The translations under genes were made by a program, and so were the position numbers. A stretch of 64,000 nt of DNA from Granulicella sp. GTDB lineage: Bacteria; Acidobacteriota; Terriglobia; Terriglobales; Acidobacteriaceae. Under the pieces are notes generated by a model. That model worked only from the letters and a program-made list of their open reading frames with translations. It was not told the DNA's origin and made no database searches. Where the stretch lies: contig DAIDGQ010000009.1 of the NCBI GenBank assembly GCA_027452215.1, positions 62,001-126,000 of the forward strand. The letters are read 5' to 3'. Shown here piece after piece: positions 30,535-36,954 of this stretch (the first letter of the stretch is position 1; each line of letters starts with the position of its first letter).

Positions 30535-33414
30535 TCAGCGCTTCTTCCGCTGCCGGGCTTTCGCCTTCCCACTCACCTTCTTCTCCTTCGACTTCGCCCT
30601 CTTCGCCTCACTCTTCCCGCCTCGCAAAGACCCGCCCTTCGCGATCCCCGTATTGGCCACCGGCTCCGTCCCCGGCATCAGCGCAAACTGCAGCCGCCGC
30701 TGCTGCCGGTCGATCCGGTCCAGCAGCACATGCACTCTCTGCCCCAGCGAAAACACATGTCCCGTCCGCGATCCCACAATCGCCCGGTCCGTATCGCGGA
30801 AGCTATAGAAGTCGCCCACCAGAGACCCCAGCGGCACCAGCCCCTCGATGAACATGTCATCCAGCTCCACAAAAAATCCATACTTCGTACACGACAGGAT
30901 CACAGCAGGGAAGTCATCGCCCACCTTGTCCGCCATGAACTTCATCTTCTTCCACTCAATCAGCTCCCGCTCCGCATCGGCCGCCCTCCTCTCCGCCTGC
31001 GAGCTCTCCACCGCAATATCGTTCAACTCCTCCGCACTCATGGGCCCTTCTACTGATCCGGGTGCTACATTCGTGCGCATGGTTGTGCCCGGTTGGGATG
31101 CTCCGTGCTGCCGGGAATCCAACTCTCGCCGTCCGCGCAGGACCCACGGCTGCGCGTCATCGCTCCTTATCGCCCCTCCTCTCGGATCCGCACCCTCCCG
31201 CAGCATCGCCCTCACCAGCCGATGCACAATCAAATCCGGATACCTCCGAATCGGCGACGTAAAGTGCGTATACGAAGGAGACGCCAGCGCAAAGTGTCCT
31301 TCATTCTTCTCCGCATACCTCGCCAGCTTCAGCGACCGCAGCATCAGGTACGACAGGATCCTCTCCTCCGGAGTCCCGCTAATCCTCTTCACCAGCTTCT
31401 GGTACATCTGCGGAGTCACCACAATGCTCTCCGGAACCTCATGCTGCTGCGCCGCCCGCGAGTCCTTCCCCCGCGCCGACCTCTGCCGCCCCTCCCTCCG
31501 GTCCGCCTTCATCGTGAACTTCCGCACCGGCAGGTTCCCCAGCCCCAGCGAGTGCCCAAACCCCGCCGCCGTCTCCTCAAAGTCCACAATCCTCTTCGGG
31601 TCCGGCATCTCGTGGATCCGGTAGATCGACGAAATCCCCTGCCGCTCCAGCCACGTCGCCACGCACTCGTTGGCCGACAGCATGAACTCCTCAATCAGCC
31701 GGTGAGCCCACCCCCTCTCCGACCTCACAATCGCCTTCATGTTCCCGTCCGGATCAAACTCGACAATCGGCTCCGGAAGGTCAAAGTCAATCGACCCACG
31801 ACGTACCCTCTTCGCATTCAGCCTCAGCGCCAGCTCCAGCATCGAGTCGAACGCCGCCGGAAGCCCGGCAAACTCCATTTCGATCCGTTCTCGCTCGACA
31901 ATGTCCCCCAACCTTCCTTCAGTCACGCCGCTTGCAACCCCAGACTGGCTTGAATACGCGCCATTCTCACCCCCTTTGCCCGCATTGATGCACTGCTGCA
32001 CGCTCGTGTACGTCATCCGGCGCACACTGCGAATAATCCCCTCCGTCACCCGGTAGCCAACGATTTCGCCCTCCGGATCGATCTCCATGATGCAGCTAAG
32101 TACAAGCCTGTCTTTATTTGGAAGCAGGCTGCACATCCCGCTTGAGAGCGCATGAGGAAGCATCGGAACCGCCCGGTCAGGGAAATACACGCTCGTTCCC
32201 CGCATCCGAGCCTCCGTATCCAGCGCCGACCCCGGCCGAACATACCAGCTGACATCCGCAATATGCACCTGTAACTCACTGTTTCCATTGGGCAAACTGC
32301 GTACCAGCACCGCATCGTCGAAGTCCCGAGCCGTCTCTCCATCGATCGTCACAATCGGCAGACCCCGGAAATCCTCCCTGTTTTCAAGCACTTCCGGCCC
32401 GGCAGCCTCCACCGTCTCGAGCGCCCGGTCCGCCGCCTCAGCCAGCACCGCCGCAGGGAAAGTATGTGGAATGTGATGTTTACGGATGATGATCTCCACA
32501 TCCACGCCGAACGCGTCCGGTGGCCCCAGCACCTCAATCACCCTCCCCCTCGCCGGCCTCCCAGCAGAAGGAAAACTGGTGATCTCCACGTCCACCGCCA
32601 GCCCCTCCAGGGGGTACCGTGGATCTTTCGAATCAGTAGCTTGCAGCGTTCTCCGAGCCTCCTCACCCAGCATCCGGTGGGGCGAATCCACCACCTCCGC
32701 GACCACCTCATCCCCCTCCGCAATGCTGATCGCCCCCCCGATCCGCTCGTCGAGCGGGGACACGTAATTGCCCGTAAGCGTAATCGAATCAGCGCGTTGG
32801 TGGGGTCGAGCATAGTGGAAGATCCCCACCACAGTCGGATTGCGACGAGTCAGAACCCGCGCAATCCGCCCCGAACGTCGCCCATCCCTCCCCGGAAGTG
32901 CCTCATCCACAAGGACTAAGTCCCCCTGCATCGCCCCATTGATCTCGTTGGGAGGAATAAAGATATCCTCCTGCCGCTGCCCCTCGGCAGCCCCCGTTCC
33001 CCTTGCGGAGGCTCCTTTACCCCTTTGCTGTGAGGTACTTGCCTCAGGCCGAACAAACCCGAACCCATCCCGGTGCAGGTCCAGACGCCCACTGACCAGC
33101 CGCTCTCGCCCCGAACGAACGGCCGCCTCCATCCCATCCCATCGACCTCCCTGTCTTCCAGGCCGACCCGACCCTCCAACTGCCTGATTCACAACGGGTT
33201 CTGCCCTGGGGATCGACCACATATCCTCGCCAGCGCGCACCAGGTCGCCGCGCGCCACCATCCGAGTCAGTTGCTCCACCAGCAACCGCCGTTCGCGCCC
33301 CCCACCCAGCCCCAGTTCACGGATAAGTTGTTTGTAACCAGCACGTCCGCCCGCCGAGCGACTGATTCTGGCGATCAAATCGTGATCACTGCGTGGATAA
33401 GGAGTCCGTGCCAT
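30535..33414 (-). CDS. rnr: Ribonuclease R (RNB family), with lineage-specific insertions
   Basis: RNase R is a processive 3'-5' exoribonuclease that degrades structured RNA. An N-terminal helix-turn-helix (DLIARISRSAGGRAGYKQLI) and cold-shock domains (LHRDGFGFVRPE) precede the RNB core with TIDGETARDFDDAV carrying the catalytic aspartates, then HIADVSWYVRPGSALD and the C-terminal S1 domain (TKYGFFVELDDMFIEGLVPL). A Lys-rich tail ends it. At 959 residues it is ~150 longer than E. coli RNase R. The surplus includes a Gly/Arg-rich block after the first CSD, GKGGENGAYSSQSGVASGVT inside the RNB domain, and DSRQHGASQPGTTMRTNVAP near its end, all hydrophilic and repeat-like. Confidence 0.95.
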   Translation of the reverse strand: MARTPYPRSDHDLIARISRSAGGRAGYKQLIRELGLGGGRERRLLVEQLTRMVARGDLVRAGEDMWSIPRAEPVVNQAVGGSGRPGRQGGRWDGMEAAVRSGRERLVSGRLDLHRDGFGFVRPEASTSQQRGKGASARGTGAAEGQRQEDIFIPPNEINGAMQGDLVLVDEALPGRDGRRSGRIARVLTRRNPTVVGIFHYARPHQRADSITLTGNYVSPLDERIGGAISIAEGDEVVAEVVDSPHRMLGEEARRTLQATDSKDPRYPLEGLAVDVEITSFPSAGRPARGRVIEVLGPPDAFGVDVEIIIRKHHIPHTFPAAVLAEAADRALETVEAAGPEVLENREDFRGLPIVTIDGETARDFDDAVLVRSLPNGNSELQVHIADVSWYVRPGSALDTEARMRGTSVYFPDRAVPMLPHALSSGMCSLLPNKDRLVLSCIMEIDPEGEIVGYRVTEGIIRSVRRMTYTSVQQCINAGKGGENGAYSSQSGVASGVTEGRLGDIVERERIEMEFAGLPAAFDSMLELALRLNAKRVRRGSIDFDLPEPIVEFDPDGNMKAIVRSERGWAHRLIEEFMLSANECVATWLERQGISSIYRIHEMPDPKRIVDFEETAAGFGHSLGLGNLPVRKFTMKADRREGRQRSARGKDSRAAQQHEVPESIVVTPQMYQKLVKRISGTPEERILSYLMLRSLKLARYAEKNEGHFALASPSYTHFTSPIRRYPDLIVHRLVRAMLREGADPRGGAIRSDDAQPWVLRGRRELDSRQHGASQPGTTMRTNVAPGSVEGPMSAEELNDIAVESSQAERRAADAERELIEWKKMKFMADKVGDDFPAVILSCTKYGFFVELDDMFIEGLVPLGSLVGDFYSFRDTDRAIVGSRTGHVFSLGQRVHVLLDRIDRQQRRLQFALMPGTEPVANTGIAKGGSLRGGKSEAKRAKSKEKKVSGKAKARQRKKR
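31042..31160 (-). repeat. Repeat-like in-frame insertion inside rnr
   Basis: A segment of roughly 120 bp coding RRELDSRQHGASQPGTTMRT lies between the RNB core and the S1 domain where other RNase R proteins have a short linker. The sequence GCAGCACGGAGCATCCCAAC looks like intergenic repeat DNA. Boundaries are approximate; copy number could not be checked. Confidence 0.45.
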
Positions 33415-33519: not shown

Positions 33520-33798
33520 TCAAATTAGGGTCCAAATGGCGTAAATCAAGCATTAAACCAAAGTAGATTGGTCTGAAAGACAGGCCCATAAGCTAGATAA
33601 ATCTTAGAGATAGCTCAGTATTGAATAAGTAATGACTAACGTTACTTCAGTAATGTTAACTGAAGAGTATATAGTTATGTTGTTGATAAGAATAGACTTA
33701 CAACTTTTATCACTTTATGTTGTGACTATCTGGTTTGTCCAGAGAAAAATTTGAAATCTTTCACCAACTACTTAACCACTGCCAAGGAGAAATACACC
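33520..33798. other. AT-rich intergenic island at GC-skew switch (candidate oriC or junction)
   Basis: The 33541-33780 stretch has 77 G/C of 240 (32%) by hand count, against ~60% on both sides. It contains a DnaA-box-like TTATCAACA (minus, 33681-33689, one mismatch to TTATNCACA), weaker TTAT variants, the inverted repeat CTTCAGT/ACTGAAG (33645-33665), palindromes TAACGTTA and GTTAAC, and a direct repeat AGTAATG...TAAC. A closer DnaA-like TTATCCACG lies at ~33391 within rnr. The plus strand is C-rich to the left and G-rich to the right. It also must hold the promoter of the peptide gene. Confidence 0.55.
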
Positions 33799-33981
33799 AT
33801 GAAAAACATCGCAATGCGCAGCTTCGTTCTCGTCCTCGCCCTCGTCGGATTCGCCGCCACCTCCATGACCTCCTCGGCAAAGACCACCAGCACATCCGCA
33901 ACCAGCATCCAGCTACAGACCGGCGTTGTGTCTTCCCCCACTCCGCTCTGCGCACCAGGCAGCACCTGCGGCATGGACTAG
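33799..33981 (+). CDS. Small secreted peptide precursor (60 aa)
   Basis: A 60-residue ORF starting MKNIAMRSFVLVLALVGFAA (AAGGAG 9 nt upstream fixes the start; the track start is 16 codons earlier). The first ~29 residues form a signal peptide ending near SSAKT, and the mature part is a ~30-residue Ser/Thr-rich peptide ending PTPLCAPGSTCGMD, with two cysteines that could form a disulfide loop (CAPGSTC). I recall similar short proteins with C-terminal C-x-x-x-x-x-C-G-[ML]-D in other Acidobacteriaceae but cannot verify this. It lies 91 nt upstream of a seven-helix membrane protein on the same strand, an arrangement compatible with a secreted ligand and its receptor. Confidence 0.8.
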   Translation: MKNIAMRSFVLVLALVGFAATSMTSSAKTTSTSATSIQLQTGVVSSPTPLCAPGSTCGMD

Positions 33982-34026
33982 CTTTACGCAAAATATATTG
34001 GCTGATCCACCATATTGCAGTTGCTT

Positions 34027-34066
34027 CACCTCCCTAGTGCGGATACCATTATCGCGCAGGGAGGTG
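34027..34066 (+). promoter_or_regulatory. Hairpin sequestering the ribosome-binding site of the 7-TM gene
   Basis: CACCTCCCT (34027-34035) pairs perfectly with AGGGAGGTG (34058-34066). Inside, GTGCG pairs with CGCGC (one G-U), extending the stem with a single bulged A. The right arm contains the GGGAGG Shine-Dalgarno of the membrane protein, whose ATG is 6 nt further on. No U-run follows, so it is not a terminator. Translation of the 7-TM gene should be low unless the stem opens, by heat, a trans-acting RNA or protein, or ribosome movement. Confidence 0.75.
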
Positions 34067-34072
34067 TTTGCC

Positions 34073-35041
34073 ATGGATACGAAGCTGCTTCTGGAATATG
34101 CCATGTTTGCTGAGGTCTTCGTTGGGATCGGCATTCTAATGCTGATGATGCGTAAGCGTTTGCTTCGCGACTTCGGCTTCCTCGCGGCGTTTCTCGCTGT
34201 TGATAGCTTTGAAAACAGCATTTCCATCCCTCTGCTCTTTTTCCGGCAGCATCTCGGTATCTCGAAGATTCTTTGTTACGAAATTTACTTTTACTCACAC
34301 TGGTTTCTCTTCTTCGTTGAGTACAGCCTATTGCTGATGGTTATCTATGGAGTGTTTCATCGTGCGATGAAGCCGCTAGAAGGATTACATCGGGCAGGCA
34401 AGATCATATTTCGTTGGGTTGGTGGGGTTTCATTGGCCCTTTCTCTGGTTATGGCCTTGGGTCCGCATATTGCAGGACAGTTCTACATCGCAACGCTGGC
34501 AGGCCAGATGCAGCAAGGCATAAGCATTCTCATCCTTTGCCTTCTACTGTTCGTATGTTTTTCCACGAGGTATTTGGGCCTTACTTACAGAAGCCACATC
34601 TTCGGCGTCAGCCTTGGGCTTGGCATTTTCGCGACTGTAAGCCTTGTTGAATCAGCATGGTATGCGACGGGAGTTGGTCAAACCGTTTATTCGCCGGTTT
34701 ATGTCGTAAGCGCGCTGGGCACTTGTGCTGCTTTGCTCACGTGGGGCACCTATTTTGCGATGCCGGAGCCGGAGCGGAAGATGATTCTGCTCCCAACCAC
34801 TTCGCCCTTCTTCCTATGGAACCGCATATCCGAGGCCTTGGGTGATGAGCCAGGTTTTGTTGCGATCGCGGGGTTTAAGCCAGAGATGCTGGCACCTGCT
34901 GAGTTGACGGTGTTCACGGCTGCTTCAAAGCACGCGCACAAGCGCAAGATGGAAGAAGAGGCTGCGCAACGCGAGGCTGAGGCTGCGAACGCAGCTGCGC
35001 AGCAGGCCTTAGCCATGCAGCCCATTGCGATGCAGCGGTAG
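34073..35041 (+). CDS. Seven-helix integral membrane protein, function unknown
   Basis: A 322-residue protein. ATG 34073 follows GGGAGG by ~8 nt; the track start 49 codons earlier overlaps the hairpin and is unlikely. Seven hydrophobic segments are visible, beginning LLEYAMFAEVFVGIGILMLM and ending VYVVSALGTCAALLTWGTYF. A cytoplasmic tail of ~85 residues ends in an Ala/Glu-rich coiled-coil stretch (KRKMEEEAAQREAEAANAAA). No catalytic motif or known receptor signature was recognised. GC is lower (38-50%) than the neighbours. The upstream secreted peptide and the hairpin over its ribosome-binding site suggest a regulated peptide-membrane-protein pair; role unproven. Confidence 0.8.
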   Translation: MDTKLLLEYAMFAEVFVGIGILMLMMRKRLLRDFGFLAAFLAVDSFENSISIPLLFFRQHLGISKILCYEIYFYSHWFLFFVEYSLLLMVIYGVFHRAMKPLEGLHRAGKIIFRWVGGVSLALSLVMALGPHIAGQFYIATLAGQMQQGISILILCLLLFVCFSTRYLGLTYRSHIFGVSLGLGIFATVSLVESAWYATGVGQTVYSPVYVVSALGTCAALLTWGTYFAMPEPERKMILLPTTSPFFLWNRISEALGDEPGFVAIAGFKPEMLAPAELTVFTAASKHAHKRKMEEEAAQREAEAANAAAQQALAMQPIAMQR

Positions 35042-35050
35042 TCGGCTCCG

Positions 35051-36241
35051 ATGGAGCCTGTAACCCATATGCTGACGGGCGCATGCCTGTCCCGCACTGG
35101 CCTTAATCGGAAGGCTGCCTATGCCACGCTAACGATGGTCGTGGCAGCTGAGTTCCCCGATGTCGACATGTTATGGGGCCTGCGGGGGCCAGTCGATCAA
35201 TTTCAGCACCATCGCGGTATTACGCATGCATTTTTAGGGCTGCCCTTTGAGGCAGCCCTTCTCGTTGCAGCAGTCTACTGCTGGCACCGGTGGCGGGTCG
35301 CCAGAGAGAAGCGCAGTGCCGGGGGCACTGGGGAAAGCAGACTGGGCCCTCGAGGAGGGGTGAAGTCGCTGACGGCTGCGCCAGTGCGTTGGGGCGTGCT
35401 GTACGTGTTGGCACTGCTGGCGCTCACAAGCCACCTGCTGCTGGACTACACCAATAGTTATGGAATTCGGCCATTTTTCCCGTTCAATGGCCGATGGTAT
35501 GCCGCATCGATCGCATTCATCTTCGATCCGGTGATGTTTGTGTTGTTACTGGGCGCTCTCACGGCGCCGTGGTTGTTTGGGCTCATCGGGTCGGAGGTGG
35601 GCGCTAAGAAGCAGCCATTCAACGCGCGGGGATGGTCAATTGCGGCGCTGCTGGGCGTTGTGGGGTGGTGGGGGTTGCGCGAGGTCGAGCATGGGCGCGC
35701 GATGCAGTTGGCAATGGCGCAGAGTATCGCAGGGCCGTCTGAGTCTATCGCTGCACCGGAGTCATCGGTAAACGATCAAAGTGCGCCCGCTCCTGACGAA
35801 CCGCCGCCGGTCTATTTGTCGGCCCAGAGGGCGCTGGCGAACCCGGATTTGCTGAGTCCATTTCGTTGGTCGACGGTAATGGATTTTGGACCGGTGTACC
35901 AGTTGGGTGTGGCCGATACTCGGACCGGGGAGTTGGCAATGGGCGAGACGACGTATCCGAAGCCGGGGAGGAGTTCGGTGGTGTTGGCCGCAGAAGGTAG
36001 CAAGCTGGGGCGAGCCTATATGGACTGGTCGCCGATGCCGTTTGTAGAGGTGAACCGCGAGTTGCCGACGGAGAACCCTGAGGGAAATCGGGATGCGAGC
36101 ACAGTGGTGACGTTTCGCGATCCGCGGTTTATGGGTGGGTGGATGGGAAGCCCGGCTCGGTCGGCGCTGTCGGGGACCGTCACCCTGAACGCTGCGGGGA
36201 AGGTTGTGCAGCAGACGATGGGTGGGAGGGTCGAGAAGTAA
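35051..36241 (+). CDS. YdjM/DUF457-type membrane-bound metal-dependent hydrolase
   Basis: A 396-residue inner-membrane protein. The N-terminus has the YdjM/LexA-regulated hydrolase motifs: THMLTGACLSRTGLNRK, AAEFPDVDMLWG and HHRGITHAFLGLP, likely metal ligands (His, Asp). Several transmembrane helices follow. A C-terminal domain of ~150 residues is extra (ESSVNDQSAPAPDEPPPVYL, then beta-rich GELAMGETTYPKPGRSS). The reaction is not established; the family is described as putative phospholipid or metal-dependent hydrolase. It starts 9 nt after the 7-TM stop, so it may be cotranscribed with it. Confidence 0.88.
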   Translation: MEPVTHMLTGACLSRTGLNRKAAYATLTMVVAAEFPDVDMLWGLRGPVDQFQHHRGITHAFLGLPFEAALLVAAVYCWHRWRVAREKRSAGGTGESRLGPRGGVKSLTAAPVRWGVLYVLALLALTSHLLLDYTNSYGIRPFFPFNGRWYAASIAFIFDPVMFVLLLGALTAPWLFGLIGSEVGAKKQPFNARGWSIAALLGVVGWWGLREVEHGRAMQLAMAQSIAGPSESIAAPESSVNDQSAPAPDEPPPVYLSAQRALANPDLLSPFRWSTVMDFGPVYQLGVADTRTGELAMGETTYPKPGRSSVVLAAEGSKLGRAYMDWSPMPFVEVNRELPTENPEGNRDASTVVTFRDPRFMGGWMGSPARSALSGTVTLNAAGKVVQQTMGGRVEK

Positions 36242-36396
36242 ATTTTCGGCTTTGGTTCCCGCAGTCGGCGGTGACTGAATGTTCTTTGAGGGATTAGCCA
36301 ATTCCCTTTGCGCTTGACGGGAAGTAAAGCACGTACAATGGGAGACAGTCGATTGCCTCGCGCACGGCGAACCCTTACCTCGAAGGCCTACTGATC

Positions 36397-36954
36397 ATGC
36401 TTGCCATTCTCGTTCTCGTGCTTGCCGCTTTAAGCCGCCTTCTGCCCCATGTATTTCACGGTGTGGCTTACAACTTTACCGCTGTCGGTGCAGGGCTCCT
36501 GTTCTTTGGGTCGCGGAGACCTCGCTGGCAGGCGGTGCTGGCCGTTGCCGTGATGGCGCTGATGGATGTCTTCCTGACGGTCAAGGTGTACGGGTATGCG
36601 TTCCATCTGAGCGGCTATCTGGCAACGTGGGCGTGGTATGCGGCGGTTTGTCTGCTGGGCAGCGCGCTCTTGCGGAGGGTGACGGTGCTGCGAGTTTGTG
36701 GAGGAGTCCTGGCTTCCGCGACGAGTTTCTTTTTGCTGAGCAACTTTATGGTGTGGGCGAGTGCAGCGTCTCTAGGTAGCGTGATGTATCCGCACACCCT
36801 GGCGGGTCTGGCGAGTTGCTACGCGGCGGGTCTGCCTTTTTATGGCAATGACCTGATGTCTACGGGCGTGTTTGCGGCAGTATTCTTCGGGCTTCCAGTC
36901 TTGGCAGAGCGGTTAGCGGAGTTGAGGGATTCGACGACTCAGCCAATGGCTTAG
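36397..36954 (+). CDS. DUF6580-like small membrane protein
   Basis: A 185-residue, strongly hydrophobic protein with about five or six helices. The conserved pattern NFTAVGAGLLFFG near the N-terminus, FVWA-type middle helices and Y-ND-L (LPFYGNDLMSTGVFAAVFFGL) near the end match my memory of DUF6580, which resembles the substrate-binding S-components of ECF transporters. No ATPase genes are adjacent, so transport is only a possibility. A possible -10 TACAAT lies 57 nt upstream. A terminator hairpin follows. Confidence 0.75.
   Translation: MLAILVLVLAALSRLLPHVFHGVAYNFTAVGAGLLFFGSRRPRWQAVLAVAVMALMDVFLTVKVYGYAFHLSGYLATWAWYAAVCLLGSALLRRVTVLRVCGGVLASATSFFLLSNFMVWASAASLGSVMYPHTLAGLASCYAAGLPFYGNDLMSTGVFAAVFFGLPVLAERLAELRDSTTQPMA

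Follow-up and report, generated by a model that had tools for sequence, protein, structure and literature searches.

A secreted-type peptide gene and a seven-helix membrane protein gene form a conserved unit with a hairpin at a putative internal promoter in Granulicella-type Acidobacteria

In a 64,000-nucleotide stretch of Granulicella DNA (the window), a gene for a short, secreted-type peptide is followed by a gene for a seven-helix (7TM) membrane protein, and together they constitute a conserved stand-alone two-gene unit of Granulicella-type Acidobacteria without a recognised family. At the level of sequence, the pair is conserved, the peptide reading frame is under coding selection, the arms of a hairpin between the two genes keep their complementarity, and this hairpin is placed at a promoter-like motif. 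In the model that we propose, a promoter upstream of the peptide gene, P1, presumably strong, would drive production of a secreted two-cysteine peptide of ~30 mature residues, encoded in 2–6 tandem copies in some genomes, and a second promoter in the gap, P2, would furnish the mRNA for a 7TM protein of N-out/C-in topology. In read-through RNA from P1, a hairpin that uses the P2 spacer as its 5′ arm would hide the 7TM ribosome site; RNA started at P2 would be devoid of this arm and would be translated. The peptide would be abundant while the membrane protein keeps its own level, and may act as a signal at the periplasmic face of this protein, whose conserved cytoplasmic tail would give the output. 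Taken whole, we regard this two-promoter, hairpin-insulated ligand and receptor explanation as, on balance, probable.

The unit consists of a 60-codon open reading frame, a 91-nt gap (33982–34072) and a 322-codon open reading frame, delimited just as in the preliminary description of this DNA, and the lower GC content noted there is borne out, with values of 0.45–0.49 across most of the unit versus ~0.6 on both flanks. An RNase R-like exonuclease gene (RNB, S1) at 30535–33414 on the minus strand is divergent from the unit and is also a neighbour in other members of the genus (L091, L092). On the 3′ side, positions 35051–36954 encode a YdjM-like membrane protein (PF04307) and a DUF6580 protein; among the relatives, at least L091 apparently also has a YdjM-like gene after its 7TM gene, with other neighbours in other genera.

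Table 1 Features of the two-gene unit, with positions in the window, and loci of a related upstream motif.
Feature	Position	Strand	Basis or remark
Operator-like dyad, 14 bp, GTTACTTCAGTAAT (consensus RTTACYTYRGTAAY; site also given as GTTACYTYRGTAAY)	33641..33654	+	upstream of the peptide promoter
Proposed peptide promoter P1, TAGACT - 17 - TATGTT	33693..33721	+	sequence, recurrence
Short stem-loop TCTGG-TTTGT-CCAGA	33729..33743	+	predicted 5′ end of the peptide mRNA
Shine-Dalgarno AAGGAG of the peptide gene	33784..33789	+	sequence
Secreted-type peptide, 60 aa	33799..33981	+	ends PLCAPGSTCGMD; signal-like N-terminus, C-terminal motif P-x-P-x-C-x-P-x(n)-C-G
Proposed internal promoter P2 of the 7TM gene, TTGCTT - 17 - TACCAT	34021..34049	+	motif; predicted transcription start ~34056
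Hairpin	34027..34066	+	5′ arm 34027-34041 in P2 spacer; loop with -10; 3′ arm 34053-34066 covers the Shine-Dalgarno
Shine-Dalgarno region AGGGAGGTG of the 7TM gene	34058..34066	+	sequence; inside the hairpin 3′ arm
Seven-helix (7TM) membrane protein, 322 aa	34073..35041	+	AlphaFold2, charge pattern, tail conservation
GTTACYTTGGTWCATTGACC motif at L028, L053, L055, L056, L064-L067, L071, L072, L074, L080			putative -35 of the 7TM gene

In profile searches, 281 of 300 genomes from the bacterial family that comprises Granulicella and its relatives (76/79 genera) yielded the 7TM protein, and no genome sampled from other families of the phylum did. The peptide was matched in 125 of the 300 family genomes, spanning 26 of the 79 genera. 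The preliminary description had staked its proposal on the two genes being adjacent in relatives, and adjacent they are: the 7TM gene lies on the same strand and at most 2 kb downstream for 109 of the 111 peptide matches in genomes with listed 7TM coordinates, and downstream for 19 of 20 further peptide sites that were checked separately, the remaining one ending at a contig edge. Two matches left unplaced among the 111 were later found with a downstream 7TM gene and are included in the 19. The peptide nearest to the 7TM gene is typically 70–170 nt away. Granulicella genomes without a close 7TM homologue have no strong peptide match, except for fragments at contig ends. The flanking genes are housekeeping genes that vary by genus (RNase R; the infC/alaS side; gyrB/rpmA), and this difference between genera indicates that the peptide and 7TM genes are not linked simply because they belong to a larger operon. 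A single peptide copy is present at 52 of 71 loci and two to six copies at the other 19; near-identical copies, as many as six in tandem, precede a single 7TM gene at G177:C1:6389107-6390350 and in G251, G253, G283, G308 and L015. Literature searches did not find the pair described.

The peptide reading frame is a true gene under purifying, that is, coding selection, with dN/dS ratios of 0.08–0.66 that stay below 1 in 13/13 close pairs. These ratios answer, in favour of the peptide, the coding part of an earlier caveat that it might never be exported or translated. The N-terminus carries a conserved M-K-x-x-V-R followed by a hydrophobic core and, judged by eye and by conservation, resembles the signal peptide that had been assigned to it. 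At the C-terminus, the P-x-P-x-C-x-P-x(n)-C motif is conserved across aligned orthologues, while the mature region varies between genera. The orthologue at L025 (and at L054, the same place) has lost both cysteines (..EGTDPTPTTLPPPTPTKPSNPKTT), so some peptides can evidently do without the cysteine pair. Searches of the Pfam, NCBIfam, PADLOC and PDB families gave no match to the peptide.

For the 322-residue protein, an AlphaFold2 model built on a 75-row alignment possesses seven membrane helices at a mean pLDDT of 89, in agreement with the helix count made earlier from the sequence. The number of Lys and Arg residues per loop, 3.4/1.9/2.4 inside versus 1.2/0.4/0.4 outside, follows the positive-inside pattern and predicts an N-out/C-in topology. 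The cytoplasmic tail at 231–275 (LPTTSP..WNRISEALG) is the most conserved region of the protein in the genus, with a conservation of 0.84. What had been called a coiled-coil tail is retained as a predicted helix at 275–320, but this helix is poorly conserved, is shortened in relatives and is not the defining part of the protein. The 7TM protein is without a kinase domain, and the unit has no linked downstream signalling partner. Pfam, NCBIfam, PADLOC and PDB sequences held no family for it, so that the absence of a recognised family stands for both proteins. A Foldseek search with the 7TM model gave no match at E <= 0.001; the best, the class D GPCR Ste2 (E 0.04, TM 0.36), reflects a weak generic 7TM resemblance. 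PDB sequence matches to JNK kinases and NADH subunits (E >= 0.06) and the below-cut-off Pfam matches DUF6163, LMP1 and Bor were taken as chance, and an NCBIfam selenoprotein domain match (E 0.007, 16.6 bits versus a cut-off of 35) was discarded.

Peptide-free homologues of the 7TM protein add an evolutionary dimension. Twenty sampled homologues without the peptide form one clade (support 100/99), and only four changes of peptide presence or absence are needed on the 7TM tree, a count that, with the root of the tree not fixed, suits an old peptide–7TM pair with later loss. Because the whole clade keeps the 7TM protein without the peptide, the protein should have some peptide-independent role. 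Rows scored with the peptide have the tail motif LPTTSP..WNRISEALG in 38 of 51 cases, those scored without it in 2 of 23.

The reading that we favour, with confidence that is about evenly balanced, is that the peptide is the ligand of an N-out/C-in 7TM receptor. The exported peptide might instead be an obligate small subunit or a maturation factor of a 7TM transporter or enzyme rather than a diffusible signal, as would befit the strict linkage, the purifying selection and the conserved C-terminal P-x-P-x-C; nevertheless, the putative separate promoters and insulation from co-expression, together with the excess of peptide copies over the single 7TM gene at some loci, speak against a fixed stoichiometry, and we consider this alternative unlikely. 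Rather improbable, in our estimate, is a Sec-exported bacteriocin for which the 7TM protein would be the immunity protein that shields the producer, with tandem copies raising the dose or widening the range. The 7TM protein is near universal (76/79 genera) and is kept without the peptide in a whole clade, unlike typical immunity genes; its conserved cytoplasmic tail is not expected of a shield, and there is no PADLOC match and no Pfam or NCBIfam bacteriocin or immunity family above cut-off. These observations weigh against the small cysteine-pair peptide, its near-identical tandem copies, the separate expression of its membrane partner and the differences in the mature region between genera, all of which a bacteriocin would explain.

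Candidate elements for separate expression of the two genes flank the peptide gene on both sides. The proposed P1 conforms to a TRGACTT...TAnGTT pattern that precedes the peptide gene at 15 of 54 peptide loci, most of them in Granulicella. The TCTGG..CCAGA stem-loop recurs in relatives, with a paired change in L012 (TCCGG..CCGGA), and is perhaps a stabiliser of the peptide mRNA. Further upstream, the operator-like dyad GTTACTTCAGTAAT has no other match in the window at one mismatch or fewer (0.03 expected), and its consensus is perfectly matched exactly once in five of the seven genomes searched, in all five upstream of the peptide gene (L105-L109). When a dyad regulon was sought at one mismatch, matches were no commoner overall than those of the reversed control pattern. 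At many peptide-free 7TM homologues, the related motif GTTACYTTGGTWCATTGACC sits right at the gene's putative -35, which suggests that the same regulator controls whichever gene is first. In the gap, nearly all peptide-associated loci share the TTGnnn-17-TAnnnT pattern of P2 at a fixed position, and the mean promoter score at this position, picked by scanning for the best score, is 9.6 versus 7.7–7.9 in peptide-free homologues.

The hairpin of the preliminary description, with CACCTCCCT paired to AGGGAGGTG and extended by GTGCG/CGCGC so as to bury the Shine-Dalgarno, folds as described; the extension pairs across one bulged A, and the hairpin folded alone reaches -24.4 kcal/mol. Folded over 119 nt that include the gap and the first part of the 7TM gene, the sequence scores z = -2.6 versus shuffles. 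In nearly all peptide-associated loci the -10 lies in or beside the loop and the promoter spacer forms or contains the 5′ arm; some loci of the genus sampled as g51 have the 5′ arm just after the -10, ending near the predicted start. The hairpin is weak or off the Shine-Dalgarno in L004, L014, L016, L017, L019, L086 and L090. We infer that transcription from P2 starts at the predicted base, leaving the P2 RNA without the 5′ arm, so that the hairpin would be possible only in read-through RNA from P1. Computed over 54 loci, the probability of an unpaired ribosome-binding site is 0.29 in read-through RNA, 0.39 when the upstream sequence is shuffled and 0.47 in P2 RNA (p = 1.4e-8 for read-through versus shuffled). 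The corresponding values at 27 loci scored peptide-free, among them L025 with its cysteine-less peptide, are 0.44, 0.45 and 0.50 for read-through, shuffled and promoter-initiated RNA (p = 0.23 for read-through versus shuffled).

Column covariation on the seven closest loci was too shallow and, with stems that shift register, partly misaligned, and an arm-swap test was used instead. The loci's own arms pair at -17.5 kcal/mol versus -11.7 kcal/mol with the 3′ arms of other loci (z -13.5; 0/5000 permutations). In the loci scored peptide-free, again with L025 among them, the values are -13.15 versus -13.07 (p = 0.44; p = 0.61 once the two doubtful loci L025 and L029 are removed). The test is not tree-based and loci in one genus are not independent; draws in which each of 16 genera was represented by a single locus, which remove most of the relatedness problem, returned p <= 0.001 in 100/100 cases. 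Stem sequences diverge and self-complementarity is kept by compensation, the very kind of change whose absence would have spoken against the preliminary description.

These data bear on what the inverted repeat does. Were it a protein-binding operator over P2 and not an RNA device, its overlap with promoter elements would be in order, dyads being frequent in promoters; yet the stem diverges freely between genera with its self-complementarity intact, whereas a site bound by one protein family would be expected to stay the same in sequence, like the dyad at 33641–33654, rendering this reading very improbable. Most likely, the hairpin silences translation from read-through peptide mRNA, and a short mRNA of its own supplies the 7TM protein. 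An intrinsic terminator was not found in the gap, and no T run follows the stem. The peptide stop codon is 45 nt before the stem, at which distance a terminating ribosome should not open the hairpin. Usual RNA thermometers are far less stable than -24.4 kcal/mol. The preliminary description had cast the hairpin as a conditional translation switch (RNA thermometer, riboswitch or leader-coupled control) setting the receptor relative to the peptide, but beyond the buried Shine-Dalgarno little recommends this most improbable reading, which we discarded: the hairpin straddles a putative separate 7TM promoter, has no Rfam match at E <= 1, is too stable and too far from the peptide stop, and has the -10 box as its sole recurrent loop element. 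We infer the reverse of such coupling, namely that the hairpin uncouples 7TM expression from that of the peptide.

Acidobacteria rank among the most common bacteria in soil, and literature searches found no peptide signalling described for them; the peptide/7TM pair, without known relatives, is a concrete candidate. That peptide signalling here proceeds via a stand-alone 7TM receptor of GPCR topology that has neither a kinase domain nor an enzymatic one, in a system that goes back to the ancestor of one Acidobacteria family and has its adjacent ligand and receptor genes insulated from co-expression by a promoter-embedded hairpin, is a tentative proposal that we hold to be possible rather than probable.

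Several known systems resemble parts of the unit. In Agr (AgrD/AgrB/AgrC), a small peptide gene is likewise linked to that of a polytopic membrane protein; unlike Agr, the unit contains no histidine kinase, response regulator or AgrB-type protease, its neighbours are housekeeping genes, the leader is of Sec type rather than amphipathic, and the partner is a plain 7TM protein. Sec-dependent bacteriocins also pair a short secreted peptide bearing two cysteines with a linked immunity membrane protein, but the 7TM protein differs from the latter in being near-universal, conserved and without a family match. Ste2, which binds a secreted peptide, and the microbial rhodopsins share the seven helices and the predicted N-out/C-in topology; compared with the 7TM protein they give E >= 0.04 and TM 0.3–0.41, short of fold or sequence homology. 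Similar in regulatory logic are the IS10/IS50 transposases, where read-through RNA hides the ribosome site and native RNA does not, as predicted here, although in a mobile-element context and with no peptide/membrane pair. For phage T4 I-TevI (also I-TevII/III and segB, and mobE of Aeh1), a late promoter lies inside the ribosome-site hairpin; long upstream transcripts of I-TevI hide the Shine-Dalgarno in the hairpin, and the short RNA from the downstream promoter is translated (PMC2988022). The unit described here, unrelated to I-TevI in sequence, has in common with it a stable predicted hairpin over the Shine-Dalgarno in upstream-initiated RNA (-24.4 kcal/mol; accessibility of 0.29 versus 0.39 when shuffled) and a promoter, recognised here by motif with its -10 in the loop, so placed that its RNA would be without the 5′ arm. 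While I-TevI is a homing endonuclease timed during infection, the present hairpin lies on the chromosome between genes for a peptide and a membrane protein, in 16 genera tested. If the model is true, the promoter-in-hairpin trick of T4 extends to a chromosomal gene pair across many genera with fully different stem sequences.
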